Assembly: GCA_002257045.1 (NCBI GenBank)
Contig: NCHD01000014.1
Span: forward strand, 1 to 46,406
Origin: Hydrogenophilales bacterium 16-61-112
GTDB taxonomy: Bacteria; Pseudomonadota; Gammaproteobacteria; Burkholderiales; Thiobacillaceae
Length of the DNA: 46,406 nucleotides
Reading direction: 5' to 3'
The position numbers were made by a program, and so were the translations under genes. Shown piece by piece: positions 29,542 to 39,942 of this stretch. Below the pieces are notes generated by a model. That model searched no databases, was not told the origin of the DNA, and saw nothing but the letters and a program-made list of their open reading frames with translations. The stretch's first letter is position 1. The number at the start of each line of letters is the position of its first letter.

Positions 29542-29933
29542 GATCCCTCCAACCAGTAAGTTTAAGATGTGCATATCCGAATAACTGGTTGCACTGTATG
29601 CCTTTGCATGGATATAGAAAGCCCACAAAACAAGGATGGTTGGCCTGATCTACCTCTAAATGGGTAGAGGTGTTACCCCGCTACTGCTTTGTTTCTTAAT
29701 CGAATTTACGAACGGTGGCATGGCTGGGCATTCAGAATTGGCGCGTTGGGGGTAACCCCACCTCGCCGTCAGGAGGCCATGCGGTGCGTGGTATATTTCA
29801 GCCGTGCTGATGATGCGTGTGATGCGTGCCCGACTTTTAGTGACCCACACTCATGCAAATAATGGCGACAGTCAGATTATCGGCACCCTATTACCGAGGC
29901 CAACATGCGTGCCTCAACACACTGGAGAAATCA
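29542..29933. promoter_or_regulatory. Divergent regulatory region between narK1 and the cytochrome c gene
   Basis: This 392-bp gap serves two divergent genes. It holds a perfect NarL 7-2-7 site at 29651-29666. A second structure is a pair of related inverted segments: GAGGTG plus TTACCCC at 29667-29679, and GGGGTAA plus CACCTC at 29749-29764, in opposite orientation and about 80 bp apart. I see no TTGAT-N4-ATCAA Fnr box and no clear -35/-10 pair on either strand. Confidence 0.5.
29651..29666. promoter_or_regulatory. NarL/NarP 7-2-7 binding site
   Basis: TACCTCT-AA-ATGGGTA fits the published heptamer TACYYMT and its inverse AKRRGTA at all 14 positions with the required two-base spacer. By base counting a perfect site should occur by chance about 0.01 times in a window of this size at equal base frequencies. 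A narX-narL pair is encoded in the same window. The site is 110-125 bases upstream of narK1 and about 270 upstream of the cytochrome c start. Confidence 0.7.
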
Positions 29934-30365
29934 ATGAAGGCAACATCAATCATTCTGGCCGTTTCGTTTGCAGCGTTGCTGAGCGCTTGCGGTAAACAAG
30001 AGAGCGCTGCACCCCAAGCCGGTGCCCCGGCGGCCGTGCCCGAGGCGGCTGCCCCGGCGCCGGCCATGGCAGAAAAGCATGTAGAGGCTGAGCAAAAACA
30101 TGATGGCGAGAACGCGCTGGGCAAGAAAGTCTTCGGTAATGTCTGCTCGATGTGTCATGCAGTGGGCGCGGCCGGTGCGCCGAAGCCCGGTGATAAAGCC
30201 GACTGGGGTCCGCGAATCGCGCAAGGCAAGGACATGCTCTACAAGCATGCGTTGGAAGGATTCACGGGGGCAAAAGGCTTGATGCCTGCACGTGGCGGCT
30301 CCACCACCCTGAGCGATGAAGACGTCAAGGCGGCAGTGGACTTTATGGTTGACAAGTCGACATAA
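29934..30365 (+). CDS. Lipoprotein class I cytochrome c
   Basis: The 143-residue precursor has a lipoprotein signal ending LLSAC (lipid cysteine C19), an Ala/Pro-rich linker to about residue 45, and one haem c domain. The haem site is C71-S-M-C74-H75 and the likely sixth ligand is M117 in GLMPARGG. This is the pattern of cytochrome c5-like electron carriers, tethered to a membrane and facing the periplasm. GGAGA precedes the ATG at 29934. It is divergent from the nar block and shares its NarL site, and it converges on the nos operon, so it may carry electrons to nitrite, NO or N2O reductases; the partner is not known. A strong terminator follows. Confidence 0.87.
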   Translation: MKATSIILAVSFAALLSACGKQESAAPQAGAPAAVPEAAAPAPAMAEKHVEAEQKHDGENALGKKVFGNVCSMCHAVGAAGAPKPGDKADWGPRIAQGKDMLYKHALEGFTGAKGLMPARGGSTTLSDEDVKAAVDFMVDKST

Positions 30366-30401
30366 ATGCCTTGGACACCCTGTTGCAGGGCACCTGATCG
30401 T

Positions 30402-30437
30402 AAAACGGGGGAGATCAGCATCTCCCCCGTTTTTTTA
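30402..30437. terminator. Bidirectional rho-independent terminator
   Basis: The stem CGGGGGAGAT (30406-30415) pairs with ATCTCCCCCG (30420-30429) around the loop CAGC and is followed by seven T residues on the plus strand. On the minus strand the stem is followed by TTTT. It lies between the convergent cytochrome c gene and the last nos-operon gene and probably ends both. Confidence 0.92.
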
Positions 30438-30469
30438 TTGTCGAATCCGGCTAACTGACCCGCGTGATC

Positions 30470-31075
30470 TCAGGGGTGGTGATGCGTGTTGCGGTTCATC
30501 GACTGGATCAGTTCAGGCGTGACTTGTTTATATACCAGCACCTTACCCCCCCGGTTGCGGGCAAAATCGTCAGCCGATTTGCGCGTGGAAAAGGCTGGCA
30601 AGTCGGCATCACGCATCGGTCCCAAGGCAGAGGAGCCCTGCACAAAAAATGTGTGATGCGCTTCGATCCATTGCCCGGTTTCAAAGTCCGTGGCATAGCT
30701 GACGGCAATGTCTGCCGGGGCGTAGAGTTTGTTGGTGCGATCGGTCCTATGCAGGAAGGCGAACAGGTCAATCGGTGAATCAAAGAAATGGGAAGCACCG
30801 TCCCGGAAAACGGTTTGCGCAGCCCAATGCGGGGCACGCGCTGGATACATGCCGCATACCGGGCAACGCGCATCGGCTGGAATCGATTTTGGTACGAGCA
30901 TCGCCAGGCCCGATGAGGGATCATAGGGCGTTGCAGGGGCAACGATGCACAGTTCATTCGTGATCGATTCGGCGTTGTGGTTTGCCTGCTTGCCAGGGGG
31001 CAGGAGCGGGTAGGCAGCAATTGCAACCGCAGTCGCGGCACCCGCCAGCAAGATCAGCTTTGCGGGCAGACGCAT
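30470..31075 (-). CDS. NosL-like copper protein, second copy, with CPVCGM motif
   Basis: The 201-residue protein has one N-terminal membrane helix (LILLAGAATAVAIAAYPLL) in place of a lipobox, then a NosL-like domain with C71-P-V-C74-G-M76, FFDSPIDLFAFLH, YATDFETGQWIEAHHTFFVQGSSALGPM in parts, and KSADDFARNRGGKVLVYKQVTPELI in parts. NosL delivers copper to N2O reductase in the periplasm. It ends with a HHH run that could also bind metal. It is the last gene of the nos operon, overlaps the DUF6516-like gene by one base, and differs from the first NosL copy in motif and anchor. A distinct role in copper loading is inference. Confidence 0.8.
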   Translation of the reverse strand: MRLPAKLILLAGAATAVAIAAYPLLPPGKQANHNAESITNELCIVAPATPYDPSSGLAMLVPKSIPADARCPVCGMYPARAPHWAAQTVFRDGASHFFDSPIDLFAFLHRTDRTNKLYAPADIAVSYATDFETGQWIEAHHTFFVQGSSALGPMRDADLPAFSTRKSADDFARNRGGKVLVYKQVTPELIQSMNRNTHHHP

Positions 31076-31440
31076 CAGGCGCTGTCCCTGACTTCAAGCA
31101 TGGGGTTGTCAAGCAAGGCACGGATCAGCTTTCGCAGATTGTCTTCCGGAGACGCATCGGGACGGGTGATCGGATCCGCCATGATGCGGCCGCCCGCATC
31201 GTGAAAGTGGTTAGGGAAGCTTGCCAAACCCTGGTGCAGCGGGGCGGTATCGATGCCCGATTCGGCATCGCCATAGACCCAGCGCAGCGAATAGGCATCG
31301 GGCGCGGCATAGCGAACGTCCAGCGTGACGCCATTTTTCAGACGGACGATCATGGCATCCTGCGTCTGTTCGACCGGGGAATCGAGGTCATCTGCAAAAA
31401 TCGCATCAATTATTGCGCCGAGTTCAAGATGAAGGCTCAT
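31075..31440 (-). CDS. Small DUF6516-like protein in the nos operon
   Basis: This 121-residue soluble protein resembles DUF6516 (the TumE-like group): a short helical start, a beta-rich middle (AMIVRLKNGVTLDVRYAAPDA), AYSLRWVYGD, the histidine-rich SFPNHFHD (FPNHFH at 75-80, compare FPHHKH in that family) and a C-terminal helix (NLRKLIRALL). Some family members are toxins of toxin-antitoxin pairs. No export signal is visible. It overlaps its upstream neighbour by four bases and the second NosL gene by one base, so it is translated as part of the nos operon. The resemblance is from memory of the motif, not an alignment, and the function here is unknown. Confidence 0.5.
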   Translation of the reverse strand: MSLHLELGAIIDAIFADDLDSPVEQTQDAMIVRLKNGVTLDVRYAAPDAYSLRWVYGDAESGIDTAPLHQGLASFPNHFHDAGGRIMADPITRPDASPEDNLRKLIRALLDNPMLEVRDSA

Positions 31441-31709
31441 GTCCGATTGGCCTCTTTCAGTCGCTCAACAAGCGTTGTGCGGACTATTTCACGGGTATCG
31501 GCAAGAATTCTGGCTGCCAGGTAGTGCTCATAGGCGGGATGCTCAGTCACTTCGCCGGCCTGGATTTGCTGCAGCAGTACTGCCTCATTTTCAGCGCCAT
31601 GGTGTTTGAGAATGGCGTTATGGTTTTCCCGCAGTTCATAGGCCAGTCGGGACAACTGTTCGATTTCTGTGGCAGTCTCGAACGCGACGTGTTCAAAAAA
31701 TTCGTCCAT
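31437..31709 (-). CDS. Small helical protein of unknown function in the nos operon
   Basis: I do not recognise this 90-residue protein. It is predicted to be all helical, with acidic and charged stretches (FEHVAFETATEIEQLSRLAY, LRENHNAIL, VLLQQIQAGEVTEH and ILADTREIVRTTLVERL) and no cysteine, membrane helix or signal. Its ATG lies five bases after the NosL stop, with AGGAG within the end of nosL as the ribosome site, and its stop overlaps the DUF6516-like start by four bases. The tight packing implies matched expression with that gene. An antitoxin or adaptor is possible; no helix-turn-helix is visible. Confidence 0.6.
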   Translation of the reverse strand: MDEFFEHVAFETATEIEQLSRLAYELRENHNAILKHHGAENEAVLLQQIQAGEVTEHPAYEHYLAARILADTREIVRTTLVERLKEANRT

Positions 31710-31714
31710 GATAA

Positions 31715-32236
31715 TTACATGCTCCTGTCGTGGAGGGCGCTACCATCAAGCACTACCAAGTCGGGTGTGATGTCAGCGAAACGATAGATCTTTCCGCCAT
31801 ACTCGGCAGCAAATTTGGTTGCGTCTGCTTCCTGGGCGAAGCTGGCGATCGTCGGCCCCATGGAGCCAAGCCGCTTGCTGCCGTGGACGTAATAGGCCGT
31901 CTTCGCGTCGATCCAGTGATCGCGAGGATCGTCCCAGTTGGCGCGGCCCATGTCCTGCACGAAAATGCCGCGCACGGCCCTGACCTGTTCGGGATTGAGA
32001 AACATGTGAAACATTTCCACCGTGTCGCAGAAGAATTCCGGCTCGGCCTGCCCGGCATAATGGATCTGGGCCTTGGGACCGGGATAGTCGGCGAGCAGCA
32101 TGCCATCCAGGCTGCAGGATGTGCCCTTGTTGACCATCAGCGGGGACACTGCGGTTTCGGTCCCGGATTTTCCACAGCCCGCGAGCGCGGTGACAGCCAG
32201 GGTGGCAAAAATTAACGTACGTTGTGCAAGCTTCAT
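31715..32236 (-). CDS. nosL: NosL copper chaperone lipoprotein
   Basis: The 173-residue outer- or inner-membrane lipoprotein has a lipobox ALAGC (C21) and a NosL domain with C41-S-L-D44-G-M46, ADYPGPKAQI, FFCDTVEMFHMFL and GSMGPTIASFAQEADATKFA. NosL supplies copper to NosZ. The usual C-x-x-C-G-M is C-x-x-D-G-M here. The frame is open upstream to 32512, but the ATG at 32236 overlaps the nosY stop by four bases and begins the signal peptide. It sits in the standard place after nosDFY. A second nosL-like gene three genes downstream has the complementary CPVCGM motif. Confidence 0.92.
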   Translation of the reverse strand: MKLAQRTLIFATLAVTALAGCGKSGTETAVSPLMVNKGTSCSLDGMLLADYPGPKAQIHYAGQAEPEFFCDTVEMFHMFLNPEQVRAVRGIFVQDMGRANWDDPRDHWIDAKTAYYVHGSKRLGSMGPTIASFAQEADATKFAAEYGGKIYRFADITPDLVVLDGSALHDRSM

Positions 32237-33048
32237 TTGCGAAATCTCCAGGTGGCAATTCCCAATGGCGCGGCAATCCAGGCAAGCATCACCAGGCCCA
32301 GCAGCCAGGGATGGGCCAATGCGGGTGGGAAAACAGTTGTCAGTCCGTACAAAGTGCGAACTTCGTTCAGGGAAAAAATGTTCAGAATGCGGAACACGTC
32401 GGCGGGATTGGCCAGTAGCAGATAGGGGAAAATCTCGCTGCCCCACTCCCCCCCCGTGGCGACCAGCGCGCCGAGCAGCAGCAGGTCGAACACCAGCACA
32501 AAGAAAAACCACATGGCGATTGCAAGTCCCGATGCGCGGGTGCGGTCGGTGGCGAACACCGACAACATCACCGCCAGGCTCAGGAAAGCGCAGCCCAGCA
32601 ACACTGAACTCAGCATGAAGCCGAAGTAATGAAGCAGGGCGTTGAAATCGAGCTGTGCCGACAGCACGATCGCCACCAGGCCAAATCCGGCCACGGTGGA
32701 AAAAGTCAGCGCGGCAGCAAGCCCGAAGTATTTTCCCAGCAACAGTTCCAGTCGGGTAATGGGCATCGACAGCAACAGATCGAGGGAGCCACGTTCGCGT
32801 TCGCCAACGATGGCATCAAAACCCAGAATCAGGGCAATCAACGGGATCAGGTAAATGACGAGGCTCACCAGGCTGGCAATGGTGACGTCGATGGAGTGAA
32901 AGCCGACGGAGCCCTGTTGCGCCGCGCCGAAGTAGGCGATGACCAGTGCAAAGGCGGTGAATACCAGCGCCACGGCCAGAACCCAGCGGTTGCGGATACG
33001 GTCCCAGAATTCCTTGCTGGCGATGGTGATGATTTGTGCAATTTCCAT
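32233..33048 (-). CDS. nosY: NosY, ABC-type membrane permease for N2O reductase maturation
   Basis: The 271-residue inner-membrane protein has six hydrophobic helices and the family pattern GFDAIVGERERGSLDLLLSMPITRLELLLGK read in parts. NosY pairs with the ATPase NosF and the periplasmic NosD to help build the copper-sulfur CuZ centre in NosZ. It lies nine bases after nosF and overlaps nosL by four, so it is part of the nosRDFYL unit. Length is normal. ATG at 33048. Confidence 0.93.
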   Translation of the reverse strand: MEIAQIITIASKEFWDRIRNRWVLAVALVFTAFALVIAYFGAAQQGSVGFHSIDVTIASLVSLVIYLIPLIALILGFDAIVGERERGSLDLLLSMPITRLELLLGKYFGLAAALTFSTVAGFGLVAIVLSAQLDFNALLHYFGFMLSSVLLGCAFLSLAVMLSVFATDRTRASGLAIAMWFFFVLVFDLLLLGALVATGGEWGSEIFPYLLLANPADVFRILNIFSLNEVRTLYGLTTVFPPALAHPWLLGLVMLAWIAAPLGIATWRFRK

Positions 33049-33057
33049 GCTCGCCCC

Positions 33058-33981
33058 TTAATCCGAAAAGCCGAAGAACACGTCTTCGAGCGAAGGTTCG
33101 CGCACGGTCAGGTCGCGCACGCGGCCATTCAGCGTGGCCAGCGCTGCGATCACGGCCATTTTGGCTTCGCGCTGACACTGCACGGTCACATGATCATCGT
33201 GCGCTTCGATTGCCCCCACCGGCAGGTGGCCCAGGGCGGCGCGCACGGCTGCGAAATCCTCCTGTGCAACGCGCACGGTGAACCACAGCGGCAGATCCAT
33301 CTGTTCGCGCAAGGCCTGCACCGTTCCACTGGCCTGTATTTTGCCGGCGGTCAGGATCGCCAGTCGATCCACCCGTTCCTGGATCTCGGCGAGGATGTGG
33401 GAGGTGATCACCATCGTCACGCCTTCGCTTCGGAGTTGCCGCAGGATCGCGTAGAAGCTGCGAATCGCCTCCGGGTCGAGGCCGGAAGTCGGCTCGTCAA
33501 GGAACAGAATGCGCGGATTGCCGAGCAGCGCCTGGGCAAAGCCGAGACGTTGGCGCATGCCCTTGGAGTATTCGCGCACCCGTCGCTTGGCCGCCGGCGC
33601 CAGGCCGACACGTTCGAGCGCCGGACCGCTTTCGGCAGGTGACACGCCTTTCAGGCGCGAGAAGAATTGCAGCGTTTCAAGTCCGGTGAGGTTGTCGTAG
33701 AGCACGACATTTTCAGGCAGATAACCGATGGTGCGCCGCACGGCGCGAAAATTTCCGCCCGTGACCTGCGCGCCGTCGATACGGATTTCGCCCGCAGTGG
33801 TGGGAATCAGGCCGAGCATCATCTTGAACAGGGTGCTCTTGCCAGCGCCGTTGTGGCCGATGAGGCCGAACAGTTCACCGGCGTGAATGTCGAGGTCGAC
33901 ACCATCGACCGCATGAATCGACCCGTAGTGCTTGTGCACACCGCGCGCGACGATGACCGCAGCCCTCGTTTCAGTTTGCAT
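33058..33981 (-). CDS. nosF: NosF, ABC-type ATPase for N2O reductase maturation
   Basis: The 307-residue ATPase has Walker A GHNGAGKST, a Q-loop region (YLPENVVLYD), the signature YSKGMRQRL, Walker B ILFLDEPTSGLD and the switch histidine in ITSHILAE. It powers the NosDFY complex. The frame is open upstream to 34122; the ATG at 33981 gives a start typical of the family and overlaps the nosD stop by 11 bases. The C-terminal 80 residues form the usual accessory domain of NosF-type ATPases. Confidence 0.95.
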   Translation of the reverse strand: MQTETRAAVIVARGVHKHYGSIHAVDGVDLDIHAGELFGLIGHNGAGKSTLFKMMLGLIPTTAGEIRIDGAQVTGGNFRAVRRTIGYLPENVVLYDNLTGLETLQFFSRLKGVSPAESGPALERVGLAPAAKRRVREYSKGMRQRLGFAQALLGNPRILFLDEPTSGLDPEAIRSFYAILRQLRSEGVTMVITSHILAEIQERVDRLAILTAGKIQASGTVQALREQMDLPLWFTVRVAQEDFAAVRAALGHLPVGAIEAHDDHVTVQCQREAKMAVIAALATLNGRVRDLTVREPSLEDVFFGFSD

Positions 33982-35257
33982 AGTGGAAATATCGGCCACG
34001 CCATTGGCTCCAGTCAGATGTATGCGGTTGCATCCGGGGTTTAGGGTCGACGACGCTTGGCGCGCGCAGCAGCGGGAACTGCTGGCTAACCAGCCGCAGT
34101 GTCTGCACCGCCGGGCTTGCAAGCAGCAGCTTCATCATCGGGTGTCGCCAGGATAGACGGTCTACGAGGTCGTTGGCCTCGTATTGCACGTCACCGACGC
34201 CGTCACCGTTGCGGTCCCAACCCACATAATTGCTCCAGTAGTTGCCCCCGCTCGCACCCCACACCACGTCCTTGCTGGCCACGTACTTGATCTGGGTACG
34301 ATTCGAAATGAAGTCATTGCCTGAGACCTGGTTGTTGACCGATCCCGCCGCCAGATGTACCCCAATGGTGTTGTCCACTATCAGGTTATTGCGCAGGATG
34401 TTGTATTCGGCGTCGTAGATAAAGAAACCGCGGTCATTGCCTGCGACAATATTGCCCTCGATGACCGAGTCCTGGATAGTGCGCAGCATGATGCCATGAT
34501 CCGAATTGCCCCATGCGCGGTTATTGCGAACCACCAGGTTGCGCACTTCCATCAGCGCCAGACCACCACGGTTGTGGTACGAGTCGTTGCCTTCCCACAC
34601 GCTGTAATTAGTGTTCATGTAGTGGGTGCCGTAGCGGGCATGGTGGATACGATTGTTGCGGAACACTGAATGGTGCGATACGTCGACGTAGATGCCGTCG
34701 CGCACGAAACTGATATTGTTGCCGACGATTTGCGCGTCTTTGGAGTTATAGAGCTGGATGCCGTTGCCGCGCCGGGGAGAAGAGTAATCGCGCTTGCCCG
34801 TAATGACATTGTTGCGGATCTCAACGGTTTTGACCGTCTCGATATAGATACCGAATAAATTGTAGGTCAGGTCGCAGTTGCGCACCGTTGCACGATTTGC
34901 CCCTGGCTTGATGAAAATGCCGGCATTCTTGTCGATCAGTTCATCGCCCGAATCGCGCACGATCAGTCCATCAATCACAACATCCTCGGCAGTGATCCGG
35001 ATCGTGTCACCTTTGAATCCGCCGCTTACGGTGGGTCGATCAATTCCTTTGAGTGTCAAAGGTTTGTCGATCACCAGCTGCTCCCGGTAGAGGCCTCTTT
35101 CCACCCGGATCACGTCGCCGGGCGAGGCCTGCTTGATTGCCGCTGCGATGGATTGCCCCGCTCGCACCGTCAGTTCGGCGGCCACCCCGTTACTCGCTGC
35201 CAGCAAACAGAAGAGTGCAGCAATCAGCGAAAATTGCCGATCTGCTAATACAGCCAT
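33971..35257 (-). CDS. nosD: NosD, periplasmic right-handed beta-helix protein
   Basis: The 428-residue protein has a signal peptide (FSLIAALFCLLAASNGVAA) and a long array of parallel beta-helix repeats of the type I-x-x-N-x-I (for example NCDLTYNLFGIYIE, NNVITG, GNNISFVRDGIYVD, GNIVAGNDRGFFIYD), a carbohydrate-binding-like fold. NosD works with NosFY in CuZ assembly. GNYWSNYVGWDRNGDGVGD near the C-terminus is conserved in the family. The ATG at 35257 overlaps the nosR stop by 13 bases; the frame is open well upstream inside nosR, but the signal peptide fixes this start. Confidence 0.95.
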   Translation of the reverse strand: MAVLADRQFSLIAALFCLLAASNGVAAELTVRAGQSIAAAIKQASPGDVIRVERGLYREQLVIDKPLTLKGIDRPTVSGGFKGDTIRITAEDVVIDGLIVRDSGDELIDKNAGIFIKPGANRATVRNCDLTYNLFGIYIETVKTVEIRNNVITGKRDYSSPRRGNGIQLYNSKDAQIVGNNISFVRDGIYVDVSHHSVFRNNRIHHARYGTHYMNTNYSVWEGNDSYHNRGGLALMEVRNLVVRNNRAWGNSDHGIMLRTIQDSVIEGNIVAGNDRGFFIYDAEYNILRNNLIVDNTIGVHLAAGSVNNQVSGNDFISNRTQIKYVASKDVVWGASGGNYWSNYVGWDRNGDGVGDVQYEANDLVDRLSWRHPMMKLLLASPAVQTLRLVSQQFPLLRAPSVVDPKPRMQPHTSDWSQWRGRYFHYAN

Positions 35258-37854
35258 TGCAACGCTGGCAGGCCTTGCAGGAAGTCCAGTACCCCCGAGC
35301 CTTTCATGATCAGGAACAAAGCAGCGGCGATCAGCAGGTTTTTGAATGCCACGTAAGATGCCATGTCGGCCCATGAAGCAGGGCGCAAGTTTCGACCCCA
35401 CCATGGGCCGTCCTTGACGTAGGGTTTGCAGCGCATGCGTACCACCATTTCGTACACGCTCCAGGCCAGCCACCAGCCCAGAATGATGCCAGGGCCGATG
35501 CTGCCGGCCGCACCGAGCACCCACACCCAAGTCACCAGTACGGTCAGGGCGAATGTGGAGGCCTGTAGCAGAATCGGCTGCTGGAATACCTTGCGACTCC
35601 AGGGGAATATGTGATCGAAGAATTCCTGTCCGATGAAGGCGGGCAGGCTTAGTCGCGCCGCAGCAGCAGGCGCAGCAGTCACCGGGATGATGGGAATGAA
35701 GTAGCCATCCGAACCGATTGCAGTCAGCGGCTCCCCGGCTTTGGTGCGGCGCTTGCGTTCCTGCGCCAGCGGAGGGCAGGCGTGGTCGTCGTAATACAGC
35801 ACCTGGCAGTCCAGACACAGCAGGCATTCGCGCTGATCGATGCGGCCGGAATCGTCGATGGCCTGGGACCCGCAGCCCACCTGGCACGCTGCGCAAGGTC
35901 CACACTCCTTCTTGCGCTTGAGCCCCCACCAGCGGAAAGTGGAGGGGACCGCAAGCGCTGCGCCGAGCGGGCAGAGATACTTGCAGAAGGGGCGCTCGAA
36001 GAAAGCTGAAGCAACCAGCAAGACGGTCCAGAACGTCACGAAAGGCCAGGAGCGGTTCCACACCCCGACCAGGAAGGTGGTTTTGAACGGTTCAATTTCG
36101 GCGAGCTTTTCGGCCAGTCCGATGGAATAGAAGGACACCGCGAGCAAAATCGCAAAGACGCCGTACTTGATCCATTTCAGGCGGTCATGCCAGTTTTGCG
36201 GCAGCAGATGGCGCTGATAGCGCTTGAGGCCCAATTTTCCGGCCACATGGTAGACCAGCTCGGCGAGCGAGCCGTAGGGGCACATCCAGCCGCAGAACAT
36301 CCCACGTCCCCAGAAGAACACCGAGATGATGATGAAAATCCAGAACAGGAAGACGAACGGATCGGACAGGAACAATTCCCAGCGCCACTCAAACAGGATG
36401 GCGTGGAACCAGGTCAGCACCTGCGTGATGGACGGCACCGCCAGCAGGTAAAACCCGACAAATCCAATCGACGTCATCCACAGCAAATATTTGGGGATGT
36501 CCTTCCAGCGCTTGTCTTTCATCGTTGAGCGCCGCACCAGCGTGTCGCGCAACGCGTAAACCGTTCCCGCTGCGGTGAGCCAGAGCAGAAACAGGATGAC
36601 CTCTATCCTGCGTGTTTTCCATACCGTCACCCAGGTCGCTTCCGGTTCGACGATTTCCGGGCGGCCGCCTTCCAGATAGCGGCCGGGTAGCCAGTATTCC
36701 TGGTCAAAGTTGACAAAGGTCTTGGCGCGGGTTTGCCGATCCATCTTGTTGGCCAGAAACACCAGATTCCAGGGATAGGCCGCGCTGAAAGTGGGCGAGC
36801 GGATGATGAAGATGGCCGACTCCCGGTAAGCGGGCGCACCGGCTGCCTTGATGTCATACAGGTTTAGATAATCCAGATCGCGGAAGGTGAAGGTATCGAG
36901 GCCCTGGGCCACCTGCACCCGGTCATAAATCCCGCCGCGCACAAAGCCCGAGCCCTTGAACGATTCAACACCGCTGGCGATGATGAAAATGGCATGTTCG
37001 TTGGGCTTGAGCCGGGACATCAGGCTTTCGTAAACTGCGTCACCGAGTACGCTGCGTCCGACTGCCGGTGCGTTGAGGTAGCCAAAATGCATATCGATGT
37101 AGGGCAGGTCGGACCGGGGCATCCCGACCGCCTCGGTGCTGACCTTGATCCCCTGGATGCTGCCTTCCTTGGCCAGTTCATCCCAATCGAGTTTGCCTTC
37201 GACCGGCCGGAACTTCGCCTGCGGCAGAATGGTGGGTTTGATGATGCCTACCTGTTTTGCAACGGCCAGACCGCTGCGCAGAATGACCTGGTTTTCGGCA
37301 ATCACGGTCACCGTGGCCCCGGTGATGGCGTCCAGGCCGATCACGCCCTGATCCGGCCGGCCGGCGCCCACTTCGATCTTGGAACCCACAAACTTGCCGA
37401 GATACTGTTTGACGAACTTGGTCAGCTCCAATTCCGGGATTCCCAACAGCAGGATCGGCTCGGAGTGCCGCAGCACCCGGACACCGGTGACGATACCCTT
37501 GGTATCCATGCCAATCAGGGTCACGACAGGTTTGCCTGAGTAGGCGGGGATGTCGACGATGTCAGTGGACAGAAATACGTAACCGAGCAGCGTGCGATCG
37601 TCTTTCCCGCCATGGTCGCTTTTCTTGCGCTGGTAGGCCTCGACATAAGCTGGCTTGCCCATGCGGTGTGAAAAGCTGTCGGCGCCTGGCAGCACATCCT
37701 TGCACGGGACGTACGCGCAGAGGTCCGGATCGGTGGACAACTGTGCGGGCAGCGGCGCCTCATAACTTCCACTTCCGCCGGCGGCCAGTCCCCACGCGCA
37801 GAATAGGTAAAACCCCGCCAGGAAGCGGGTGAAAAAACCGGGAAGACACGTCAT
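35245..37854 (-). CDS. nosR: NosR, membrane flavin and iron-sulfur protein of N2O reduction
   Basis: The 869-residue protein has an N-terminal signal/membrane helix, a periplasmic FMN-binding domain with the flavinylation motif DAITGATVT near residue 180, several membrane helices from about 430, and cytoplasmic polyferredoxin motifs: FCGWMCPYGSLAEL (about 520), FCKYLCPLGAAL (about 625) and CGPCAACQVGCGSQ plus CLLCLDCQVLYYDD (about 650-690). NosR is required for nosZ expression or electron supply to NosZ. I use the ATG at 37854 because it starts a clear signal sequence; the frame stays open to 37971. It is separated from nosZ by a terminator, and followed without gaps by nosD. Confidence 0.93.
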   Translation of the reverse strand: MTCLPGFFTRFLAGFYLFCAWGLAAGGSGSYEAPLPAQLSTDPDLCAYVPCKDVLPGADSFSHRMGKPAYVEAYQRKKSDHGGKDDRTLLGYVFLSTDIVDIPAYSGKPVVTLIGMDTKGIVTGVRVLRHSEPILLLGIPELELTKFVKQYLGKFVGSKIEVGAGRPDQGVIGLDAITGATVTVIAENQVILRSGLAVAKQVGIIKPTILPQAKFRPVEGKLDWDELAKEGSIQGIKVSTEAVGMPRSDLPYIDMHFGYLNAPAVGRSVLGDAVYESLMSRLKPNEHAIFIIASGVESFKGSGFVRGGIYDRVQVAQGLDTFTFRDLDYLNLYDIKAAGAPAYRESAIFIIRSPTFSAAYPWNLVFLANKMDRQTRAKTFVNFDQEYWLPGRYLEGGRPEIVEPEATWVTVWKTRRIEVILFLLWLTAAGTVYALRDTLVRRSTMKDKRWKDIPKYLLWMTSIGFVGFYLLAVPSITQVLTWFHAILFEWRWELFLSDPFVFLFWIFIIISVFFWGRGMFCGWMCPYGSLAELVYHVAGKLGLKRYQRHLLPQNWHDRLKWIKYGVFAILLAVSFYSIGLAEKLAEIEPFKTTFLVGVWNRSWPFVTFWTVLLVASAFFERPFCKYLCPLGAALAVPSTFRWWGLKRKKECGPCAACQVGCGSQAIDDSGRIDQRECLLCLDCQVLYYDDHACPPLAQERKRRTKAGEPLTAIGSDGYFIPIIPVTAAPAAAARLSLPAFIGQEFFDHIFPWSRKVFQQPILLQASTFALTVLVTWVWVLGAAGSIGPGIILGWWLAWSVYEMVVRMRCKPYVKDGPWWGRNLRPASWADMASYVAFKNLLIAAALFLIMKGSGVLDFLQGLPALQWLY

Positions 37855-37998
37855 GAAAGAATCCGAAAGCCTCGATACACCCGCTCGTAACACGCTCAAA
37901 AAAGGCAGCGTCCTTGCGGACGCTGATTGATTACCCGGAGTTTCTCGTGAGTGTGCTGTAGCAATACCCATTCCCTACTCGGGGAAAGGCATCATTTC
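37855..37998 (-). promoter_or_regulatory. nosZ-nosR intergenic region
   Basis: These 144 bases hold the nosZ terminator and must hold any separate nosR promoter. A single NarL heptamer TACCCAT occurs at 37975-37981, but isolated heptamers are expected by chance dozens of times in this window. No clear -35/-10 pair and no Shine-Dalgarno in front of nosR are seen. Confidence 0.3.
37900..37925 (-). terminator. Rho-independent terminator after nosZ
   Basis: On the minus strand CAGCGTCC pairs with GGACGCTG (37918-37925 with 37906-37913) around a GCAA tetraloop, a stable GNRA loop, followed by CC and six T residues. It lies about 75 bases after the nosZ stop, so most nosZ transcripts should end before nosR. 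Confidence 0.9.
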
Positions 37999-39942
37999 TC
38001 ACGCCTCGACAATCATGCGGCTACGCATTTCTAGGTGCAATGCATGACAGAAGTTGGTGCAGTAACACCAGTAGACGCCTGGTTTGTCGACCGTGAACGT
38101 GACCGACTTGGTTTCCAGTGGATTGACGATGAACTGGATGTCATATTTTGGAATGGCGAAGCCATGGGTCAGGTCTTCCACCTTGTCATGGTTGGTCAGG
38201 ATGATGGTCACTTCATCGCCCTTCTTGAGCTTGAATTCCCGCAGACTGAAGGCCGGCGCCTGGCTGATGAGCTTGACGGTCACCTTTTTCCCATTGCGGA
38301 AAACGCCTGAATCCTTGGGATCCTTCACCGCCAGCGGGAACTCGTCGAGGTTATAGACCTGACGCGTCTTGATGATGTCACGGCGGACGATAATCGAATC
38401 GTGCGGCTCCGAGTACACCGAGTGGTCGGCCACCAGCTTCATCTTGTCGCCGCTGATGTCGATCAACTGCGCGGTCTCGGCATGGAGCGGACCCACGGGC
38501 AGAAAACGGTCCTTGGAGAACTTGTTGTCCGAAAGGAAGAAGTGGCCATCTGCTTCCTTCGTTTCGCCCATCGAGGTGAAGCCATGACCTGGCTGATAAT
38601 GCACGTCGATACGGTCCAGTACCACCTTGGCATTCTTGTCGCCCTTGAACGCCTTGATCGCTGCTTCCACGTTCCACTTCACGATCTGGCTATCGAGGAA
38701 CAGCGTGGTGTAAGCATTGCCCTTGTTGTCGTACCCGGTATGCAGCGGTCCGAGGCCGATCTCGGGTTCGGCGACCACCGCATCGCGAGGCTTGGCCAGT
38801 TCGCCGTCAAACCATTTCAGTACCAGGGCGTGTTCGATCACCGAAGCCGTCGGCGAAAGCTTGCCGGCACAGGCATAGTATTTTCCGTCCGGGCTGATGT
38901 TCACACCGTGCGGGTTCTTCGGGATGGGCACATAGCAGGTCAGCGCGGTTTTCGGATCCTGGTTGGAAGCTCTCCTGCCATCCACTACCGGCACTTTTGA
39001 GCTGCCGATGGTGCTCACCTTGCCGGCCTTCACGGCTTCTTCAATGCGGGCCACATTGAAGAACAGGCAGGCATCCATTTCCGCTGACATAGTGTCTTCG
39101 TAATGAATGCCCATCTCGGTGTTGTACTGGTTGGTTGCCGCCAGCTTGCCGTCGTAGGAACTCGCCACCAGGTCGCAGTTTCCGTCGATCAACACCTGCC
39201 AGCGCACGTCCATGGTGTTGGAATCGACACACGTGAACAGCGACTTGTACTTGCTGCCGTCTTCCATGTCGCGCCCATCGTTGGGCAGCGGTATCGAGAA
39301 CTCGGAGCCACAGAACACGCGGGTGGTGTGATTGATGTTGGGGTCAACCGGATCGCGTTTGTCAGGAAAGGTGCCATGAAAGCCCTGGATGTTAGGCAGT
39401 TCGATGATCTTGTCGCATTCCATGGTGTCCATGCGGACACGCGCCAGACGGCTATGGATCTTGTCGTTCACGAACATGTATTTGCCATCGTAGGTGCCGT
39501 CGGCATAGGTCTGGTGCACGTGGTGCGTATCACCGGTGGTGTATTTCGGCGTGCCGTTGGGCTTGGTGCCGAGGATGGCCTTGGATTCGTTGGTTACGCC
39601 CCAGCCTACCAGGGCATCCATGTTGAAGACAGGGATGCGCTTCAGCTCGCGGCCGGACGGCAGGCCGTAGATGCGTACCTCGCCCGAATGGCCGCCACTG
39701 GAAAATGAGTAATATTCATCGAGTTTGCCAGGCGGCACCTCGTACTTGCTGGAGCCGGTCGCCTCTGCGCTGGTGGTCGGAGCACCGGCGCCAGCGGTGG
39801 GGGCCGATTCCTTCTTGTTGCAGGCTGACAGGCCCACTGAAAGTCCTACACCGGAAAGACTCACCAGTGCGGTGGTGCCCAGAAATTTTCGGCGATTCAG
39901 ATCCGGCTGGGTGTCGAGTGTTTTGATGTCGTCCTGTGTCAT
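37999..39942 (-). CDS. nosZ: Nitrous oxide reductase
   Basis: The 647-residue precursor reduces N2O to N2 in the periplasm. It has a Tat signal (NRRKFLGTTALVSLSGVGL), a seven-bladed propeller carrying the CuZ histidines (for example GDTHHVHQTY and the DKIHSR region), and a C-terminal cupredoxin domain with the CuA site C628-x3-C632-x3-H636-x2-M639. A Tat signal and an adjacent nosR mark clade I. Length is normal and the frame is intact. The ATG at 39942 follows AGGGAGCCAGGCAATC. It is transcribed alone up to the terminator at 37900-37925. Upstream it faces narX across a region with a NarL-like site, so nitrate control is likely. Confidence 0.97.
   Translation of the reverse strand: MTQDDIKTLDTQPDLNRRKFLGTTALVSLSGVGLSVGLSACNKKESAPTAGAGAPTTSAEATGSSKYEVPPGKLDEYYSFSSGGHSGEVRIYGLPSGRELKRIPVFNMDALVGWGVTNESKAILGTKPNGTPKYTTGDTHHVHQTYADGTYDGKYMFVNDKIHSRLARVRMDTMECDKIIELPNIQGFHGTFPDKRDPVDPNINHTTRVFCGSEFSIPLPNDGRDMEDGSKYKSLFTCVDSNTMDVRWQVLIDGNCDLVASSYDGKLAATNQYNTEMGIHYEDTMSAEMDACLFFNVARIEEAVKAGKVSTIGSSKVPVVDGRRASNQDPKTALTCYVPIPKNPHGVNISPDGKYYACAGKLSPTASVIEHALVLKWFDGELAKPRDAVVAEPEIGLGPLHTGYDNKGNAYTTLFLDSQIVKWNVEAAIKAFKGDKNAKVVLDRIDVHYQPGHGFTSMGETKEADGHFFLSDNKFSKDRFLPVGPLHAETAQLIDISGDKMKLVADHSVYSEPHDSIIVRRDIIKTRQVYNLDEFPLAVKDPKDSGVFRNGKKVTVKLISQAPAFSLREFKLKKGDEVTIILTNHDKVEDLTHGFAIPKYDIQFIVNPLETKSVTFTVDKPGVYWCYCTNFCHALHLEMRSRMIVEA

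Follow-up and report, generated by a model that had tools for sequence, protein, structure and literature searches.

The closest described counterparts of the gene pair reported here are the TumE-TumA toxin-antitoxin systems (DUF6516, PF20126; PMC10584680). As far as the accessible part of that paper goes, one TumE acts as an inhibitor of protein synthesis; RNase activity is put forward there and termed unproven. The pair lies in a nitrous oxide reductase (nos) cluster of Hydrogenophilales bacterium 16-61-112 (order Burkholderiales in GTDB), within the 46,406 nucleotides of contig NCHD01000014.1 that were analysed (hereafter the window). It resembles TumE-TumA in its motif, in its near or overlapping genes and in having the TumE-type gene second, which is the majority order in the same part of that paper. 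It is unlike TumE-TumA in that it always follows nosL in the carriers found, in that DN of the motif has become DT and HH usually NH, and in that its partner has no demonstrable kinship to TumA; moreover, in three genomes the two genes are fused and histidine-free, and a toxin role is putative.

Nearer still is a TumE subtype with the motif RWDNxPH...FPHHxH, found on cyanobacterial plasmids (L097, L109-L112) and at two loci of one genome, G448 (L099, L108). Its profile is the closest to that of the nos-linked protein, its gene order is the same, and it too has a short upstream partner that does not resemble a helix-turn-helix (HTH) protein. However, homology between the two kinds of partner is not significant, and the subtype occurs among restriction, PIN, exonuclease and helicase genes, not nos genes. 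At L099 (1027-1764), by eye, such a pair sits between hsdM- and hsdS-like genes of type I restriction.

Two precedents come from the nos clusters themselves. Like the pair, nosX (apbE-type) and other optional accessories are present in some nos clusters only, according to the available text of PMC7660919; NosX, however, is described there as a Tat-exported protein of about 30 kDa and a proposed flavin transferase, whereas the pair is small and toxin-related. The CusF-like family NOV5WD8W, encoded beside nosZ, is likewise an uncharacterised family tied to nosZ by context, but it is a proposed copper chaperone by fold, and its description in the accessible part of PMC10849945, with a different fold, sets it apart from the nos pair. 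Although the TumE superfamily is established, a pair of this type with a fixed place in the nos cluster appears to be new, in that I found no description of one in the open-licence literature searched, among the matches listed. I argue below that the pair is probably an unstudied part of the nitrous oxide breakdown machinery.

Results

The cluster is encoded on the minus strand in the order nosZ-nosR-nosD-nosF-nosY-nosL-partner-TumE-like-nosL2. The upstream genes, nosZ to nosY, occupy 32233..39942; NosZ matches TIGR04244 with 1014 bits at 38005-39903, and nosY, nosF, nosD and nosR were assigned by eye and from cross-matches among the loci. The first copy of nosL (31715..32236; Pfam NosL, E 3.1e-51) lies directly upstream of the partner gene; its start codon was set at 32236 by choice, the Pfam match spanning 31715-32227. 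From the end of its stop codon at 31715, a 5-bp gap leads to the partner gene (31437..31709, 90 aa), which overlaps the TumE-like gene (31075..31440, 121 aa) by 4 bp (ATGA), and this in turn overlaps a second NosL-like gene, nosL2 (30470..31075; Pfam NosL, E 1e-22), by 1 bp (TGATG). A first-pass annotation of these letters had listed both frames (90 and 121 codons), the gap and the two overlaps, and all are confirmed in the sequence. This spacing suggests that the pair is co-transcribed and translated together with nosL. No sigma-70-like promoter was found in 30300-32600, as expected if the pair relies on the operon. A terminator-like hairpin of 14 pairs (30402-30433), between nosL2 and a convergent cytochrome-like gene (29853-30365, plus strand), is a plausible end of the unit. 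The nosL2 product is a divergent NosL, with CPVCGM where the first copy has CSLDGM and, by eye, without the LAGC-type lipobox of that copy. FNR-like sites were not used: with two mismatches allowed the window has 18, where 10.4 are expected, and one of 100 shuffles is as high.

The only Pfam match of the 121-residue protein is TumE (PF20126), at 20.3 bits against a cut-off of 23.4. Despite this sub-cut-off score, the DUF6516/TumE relationship proposed in the first-pass annotation holds, with the nos-linked genes of four relatives (G063, G069, G070 and G090) scoring 23.5-28.4 bits, over the cut-off, and with a profile match to the subtype introduced above. An alignment of nos-linked TumE-like proteins (A1) matches TumE at E <= 1 in all 26 rows (best 1.9e-6). 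Compared by hhalign with that subtype (A3; seven rows, R-[WY]-D-[NS]-x-x-H ... P-H-H-x-H), it aligns in the region of the motif, over 53 columns, with a probability of 94.6 (E 7e-8). It does not match the commoner TumE type in these genomes (A6; DNExGKGDHxH, from an alignment of 11 of the 19 loci), whose neighbour (A5) looks, by eye, like an HTH protein; between A3 and A6, too, similarity is only weak (27.0%, E 6.8e-4). By these profile comparisons the 121-residue protein is a member of the TumE superfamily. The TumE cut-off was passed in 17 genomes of a 100-genome sample of the order; in the window genome, the nos-linked gene is the sole TumE match.

The shared motif, D64-T-A-P-L-H69 ... F-P-N-H78-F-H80, falls within residues 64-81 (31198..31251, minus strand). 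Across the two-gene rows of A1, both IDTAPxH and [FY]P[NH]HxH are invariant (26/26 each), the variable position of the latter being N in 24 rows and H in two. Two Thiobacillus loci (L014, L018) read FPHHFH, and L124, from genome G640, reads FPHHYH, instead of FPNHFH, a form that resembles the toxin. The histidine cluster picked out in the first-pass annotation lies in this motif, and its interpretation as a metal site is weakened: the histidines belong to a toxin-superfamily motif, as the A3 match indicates, so that metal binding or a copper site is not the first inference, and a metal-chaperone reading is less likely for this reason, though not discarded. An AlphaFold2 model of the protein, built from five input sequences, reached a pLDDT of only 65, too poor to confirm the fold, and at that quality it matched no PDB fold at E <= 0.001 (the published fold is alpha+beta with a seven-stranded sheet).

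The partner is modelled with more confidence (pLDDT 90.1) as three helices (residues 10-36, 42-50 and 56-89), and its invariant residues over 26 aligned rows include G52, E56, H57, P58, Y60 and Y63. The profile search suggested in the first-pass annotation placed one protein of the pair in the TumE superfamily and the other in no family: the partner reached no Pfam, NCBIfam or PADLOC cut-off, and PADLOC found nothing for the pair. Against the PDB the best sequence match had E 0.23, searches with profiles gave none at E <= 1, and the partner model matched no fold at E <= 0.001. The C-terminal domain of MukF (PF17193) matches 17 of the 26 partner rows at E <= 1; kinship was rejected, at 22.1 bits against a cut-off of 27. 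Two TumA-type sets gave hhalign probabilities of 0.7% (helical, E 0.087) and 1.1% (HTH-like), though with 9 and 11 rows these sets are small enough for remote kinship to be missed. With larger sets, the match to helical TumA became a 14-column alignment in another register, for which 6 of 150 column shuffles scored as high (one with an outlying 134), and it was rejected. Partner and helical TumA do have a by-eye pattern in common, a short helix, a G and a Y or W eleven residues on, which sets the register of the 0.7% alignment and is not significant; kinship between them is suggestive by eye, no further. The absence of an HTH, remarked on in the first-pass annotation, stands, but it is less odd than it seemed, as A3-subtype TumE loci also have short upstream partners unlike the HTH type (by eye), two of them annotated 'antitoxin TumA'.

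The pair or a fused form of it was identified in 40 distinct genomes (21 of Thiobacillus, 10 others of the order and 9 outside it), and in 40/40 the next recognised gene upstream is nosL. Four further loci from a nearest-locus search, not counted among the 40, also have nosL upstream; three of these are named Thiobacillus and the other comes from a proteobacterial bin, which places the window in a Thiobacillus draft genome. The integration of the pair in the nos operon, claimed in the first-pass annotation from its junctions, is supported. These genomes came from several searches. The partner was found in 18 of 60 relatives (window genome included), all within the 36 Thiobacillus, and the TumE-like protein in 10 of 300 genomes of the order. 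With the A1 profile, 5 of 369 genomes were positive in the class, of which four do not belong to the order; 299 genomes of the phylum yielded one, the window itself; and the order to which G544 belongs contributed 7 of 12, two previously counted. Of five additional Thiobacillus genomes four were positive, one previously counted. A partner profile, finally, matched 14 of 300 genomes of the order and added G257 and G269 (both fusions), G206 and G042. The G042 match, 47 residues within an 802-codon frame (E 6.4e-4), was discarded as chance. In G206, which has a TAT-type NosZ, the partner-like gene (L073 7823-8107; E 7.5e-11) lies off the nos contig, and next to it no gene was recognisable as TumE-like.

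None of the genome samples yielded a TumE-like copy outside nos; 72,556 plasmids contained no close relative of the pair, and 50,697 phage records none of the TumE-like protein. A consensus-like query against plasmids drew 12 weak matches (E about 1 for the best), among them a DUF6516-annotated record that led to the matching subtype A3.

The arrangement of the genes varies little. The gap between nosL and the partner is at most 17 bp in the 33 tabulated rows, except for 173 bp (G480) and 361 bp (G229), and the spacing between partner and TumE-like gene runs from -20 to +5 bp in 30/30 two-gene rows, with open frames in all 30. Among the Thiobacillus rows, nosL2 comes next in 17 of 19 (one of the other two ends early at a contig end), versus 2 of 11 for the other two-gene rows.

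The pair co-occurs with NosZ. TIGR04244 exceeded its cut-off in 19 of 40 Thiobacillus genomes; many of the 21 negatives are incomplete drafts. The pair is present in 19/19 genomes with NosZ versus 2/21 without a detected NosZ, and the contigs of the two exceptions (G034 and G965) stop inside nosL and nosD, before the position of nosZ. In the order sample, a full-score TAT-type NosZ occurs in 28 of 300 genomes, of which 11 have the pair or a fusion and 17 neither; G229, which brings the carriers to twelve, has its NosZ truncated at a contig end. Counting whole and truncated TAT-type NosZ together, 12/30 genomes carry the pair or a fusion versus 0/270 others. Fisher tests give 1e-13 for this comparison and 1.6e-9 for that within Thiobacillus, values that are descriptive only, given the relatedness of the genomes and the common operon of the genes. 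In 20 further genomes of the order, a NosZ-like match of 282-402 bits falls below the cut-off, and the pair is present in 0/20; I take these matches to be probably of the Sec type. Conservation with the nos genes, on which the first-pass annotation had made its reading depend, is thus found for both nosL and nosZ.

As 17 of the 28 NosZ genomes have neither pair nor fusion, the pair is dispensable for N2O reduction in general. Sixteen of these 17 pair-less clusters were fetched and eight were read downstream of nosL, where (gene names by eye, nosL excepted) an ApbE-like gene, a second nosL, a MurB-like gene, a membrane protein or a long gap is found. A family of about 290 residues lies downstream of nosL in three pair-less clusters.

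In three genomes (G229, G257 and G269) both genes form one open reading frame of 201-208 codons beside nosL. G269 has two nos clusters (L071, L072), with the fused pair in both. A single origin of the fusions is not claimed, as they join the tree on long branches. In all three genomes the PxH ... FPNHxH segment is deleted or replaced and the histidines are gone. Fusion supports a physical complex of the partner with the TumE-like protein. By itself it is no argument against a toxin-antitoxin role, because the published TumE set, in the part of PMC10584680 available, includes a subcluster in which TumE is joined to a putative antitoxin domain; loss of the motif is such an argument, since it makes the motif dispensable there and speaks against a simple addiction module.

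Purifying selection acts on both genes: compared with six other Thiobacillus loci, dN/dS is 0.08-0.16 for the partner and 0.14-0.42 for the TumE-like gene. Low dN/dS and conservation across genera indicate that the reading frames are more than chance. Distances of the TumE-like protein correlate with those of NosY over 29 genomes (r 0.77, 0/2000 permutations as high). Within the 18 Thiobacillus rows, however, r falls to 0.13 (202/2000), and among the 11 others to 0.38 (129/2000); for the partner the values are r 0.37 (1/2000) in Thiobacillus and r 0.34 (67/2000) in the others. With the TumE-like signal absent in the Thiobacillus subgroup and weak in the others, this mirror-tree comparison was not used as evidence of co-evolution. 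Genome G640 (L124) is placed outside the order; its row falls within those of Thiobacillus, its NosY is 87% identical, and on this basis it probably acquired the whole nos cluster, pair included, by horizontal transfer.

Discussion

What might a toxin-like pair do in a nitrous oxide reductase cluster? The first-pass annotation had offered two alternatives, a toxin-like pair that stabilises the cluster and a family co-opted for maturation of the reductase, and the nos-only linkage, the co-occurrence with nosZ and the motif-less fusions make co-option the better of the two. I therefore favour the view that a TumE-type toxin-antitoxin-type pair has been domesticated as a nos accessory, whatever the mechanism, and regard this as somewhat probable. 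Several observations run against it: the D/H motif is invariant in the 26 two-gene rows, as an active toxin would require; fusion by itself would also suit a toxin-antitoxin system; distances of the TumE-like protein do not follow those of NosY within Thiobacillus and do so only weakly elsewhere; 17 of the 28 order genomes with full-score NosZ do without the pair; and the model of the TumE-like protein is poor.

The working unit would be a complex of the TumE-like protein with its partner, and the natural fusions and the lack, by eye, of a signal peptide make it very likely that this complex is cytoplasmic. In most lineages, the TumE-like subunit with its D/H motif would bind or cut RNA under the control of the partner, and this activity would tune either how the nos genes are expressed or how translation proceeds while N2O is respired; in the fused minority lineage only a binding role could remain. 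The RNA-level mechanism is a guess, which I put forward as possible and would sooner bet against than for. The wider proposal is that a translation-targeting toxin fold was recruited to nitrous oxide reductase production, where the cytoplasmic complex would link N2O respiration with the use of nos mRNA or with the NosDFY-dependent assembly of CuZ and would act in some lineages as a single non-catalytic protein; this falls just short of an even prospect. According to the available text of PMC7660919, NosZ is folded in the cytoplasm and exported by TAT before receiving copper, the lipoprotein NosL binds copper, and CuZ requires NosDFY, an inner-membrane transporter. Direct hand-over of copper by the pair is unlikely, because it has no export signal by eye and NosZ gets its copper after export. 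The site of action would most likely be the cytoplasm, either on RNA or at the inner face of NosDFY.

The strongest alternative to the RNA route keeps domestication but works at the level of protein: a binding complex inactive on RNA would engage NosDFY from the cytoplasm, or the NosZ precursor ahead of its export, and aid assembly of CuZ. The RNA and protein routes together make up all the weight given above to a domesticated accessory. The fixed place of the pair beside nosL and nosDFY fits such a maturation factor, as do the three motif-less fusions that are still in nos clusters and, again from the accessible part of PMC7660919, the facts that NosDFY spans the inner membrane and that NosZ folds in the cytoplasm before export. 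However, a pure scaffold would not need the motif that all two-gene rows retain, a sulfur carrier is hard to reconcile with window proteins that contain no cysteine, and in the order sample most genomes with NosZ lack the pair, fused or not. On balance a protein-level maturation factor is doubtful.

A classic toxin-antitoxin system, in which the partner neutralises the TumE-like protein, an active translation toxin, and the nos cluster is guarded against loss, would explain why motif, gene order and overlap have been retained, and in the part of PMC10584680 available six gammaproteobacterial TumE proteins are toxic in E. coli and are neutralised by their partners. Yet a module of this kind would not be expected to be confined to nos in every genome sample and to lack close matches among the plasmid and phage records, nor to be without a recognisable sigma-70-like promoter of its own or to lose its motif in three fusions. 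The cluster with the pair is also absent in 19 of 40 Thiobacillus genomes (many of them incomplete) and so may well be lost. I consider a guardian role unlikely, slightly more so than the maturation factor. That the pair is an inactive or neutral remnant hitchhiking in some nos clusters would suit its absence from many NosZ clusters and its likely travel with the whole cluster in G640, but is very improbable given purifying selection on both genes, uninterrupted frames in every two-gene row, the invariant motif and presence in every Thiobacillus genome with NosZ.

If the pair is indeed a domesticated accessory, it would be an unrecognised component beside nosRDFYL and nosX, in Thiobacillus and several other proteobacteria, and would clearly exemplify the domestication of a TumE-type module for a metabolic role. 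A test is feasible in a cultured species, because Thiobacillus denitrificans strain RG carries the pair (L003).
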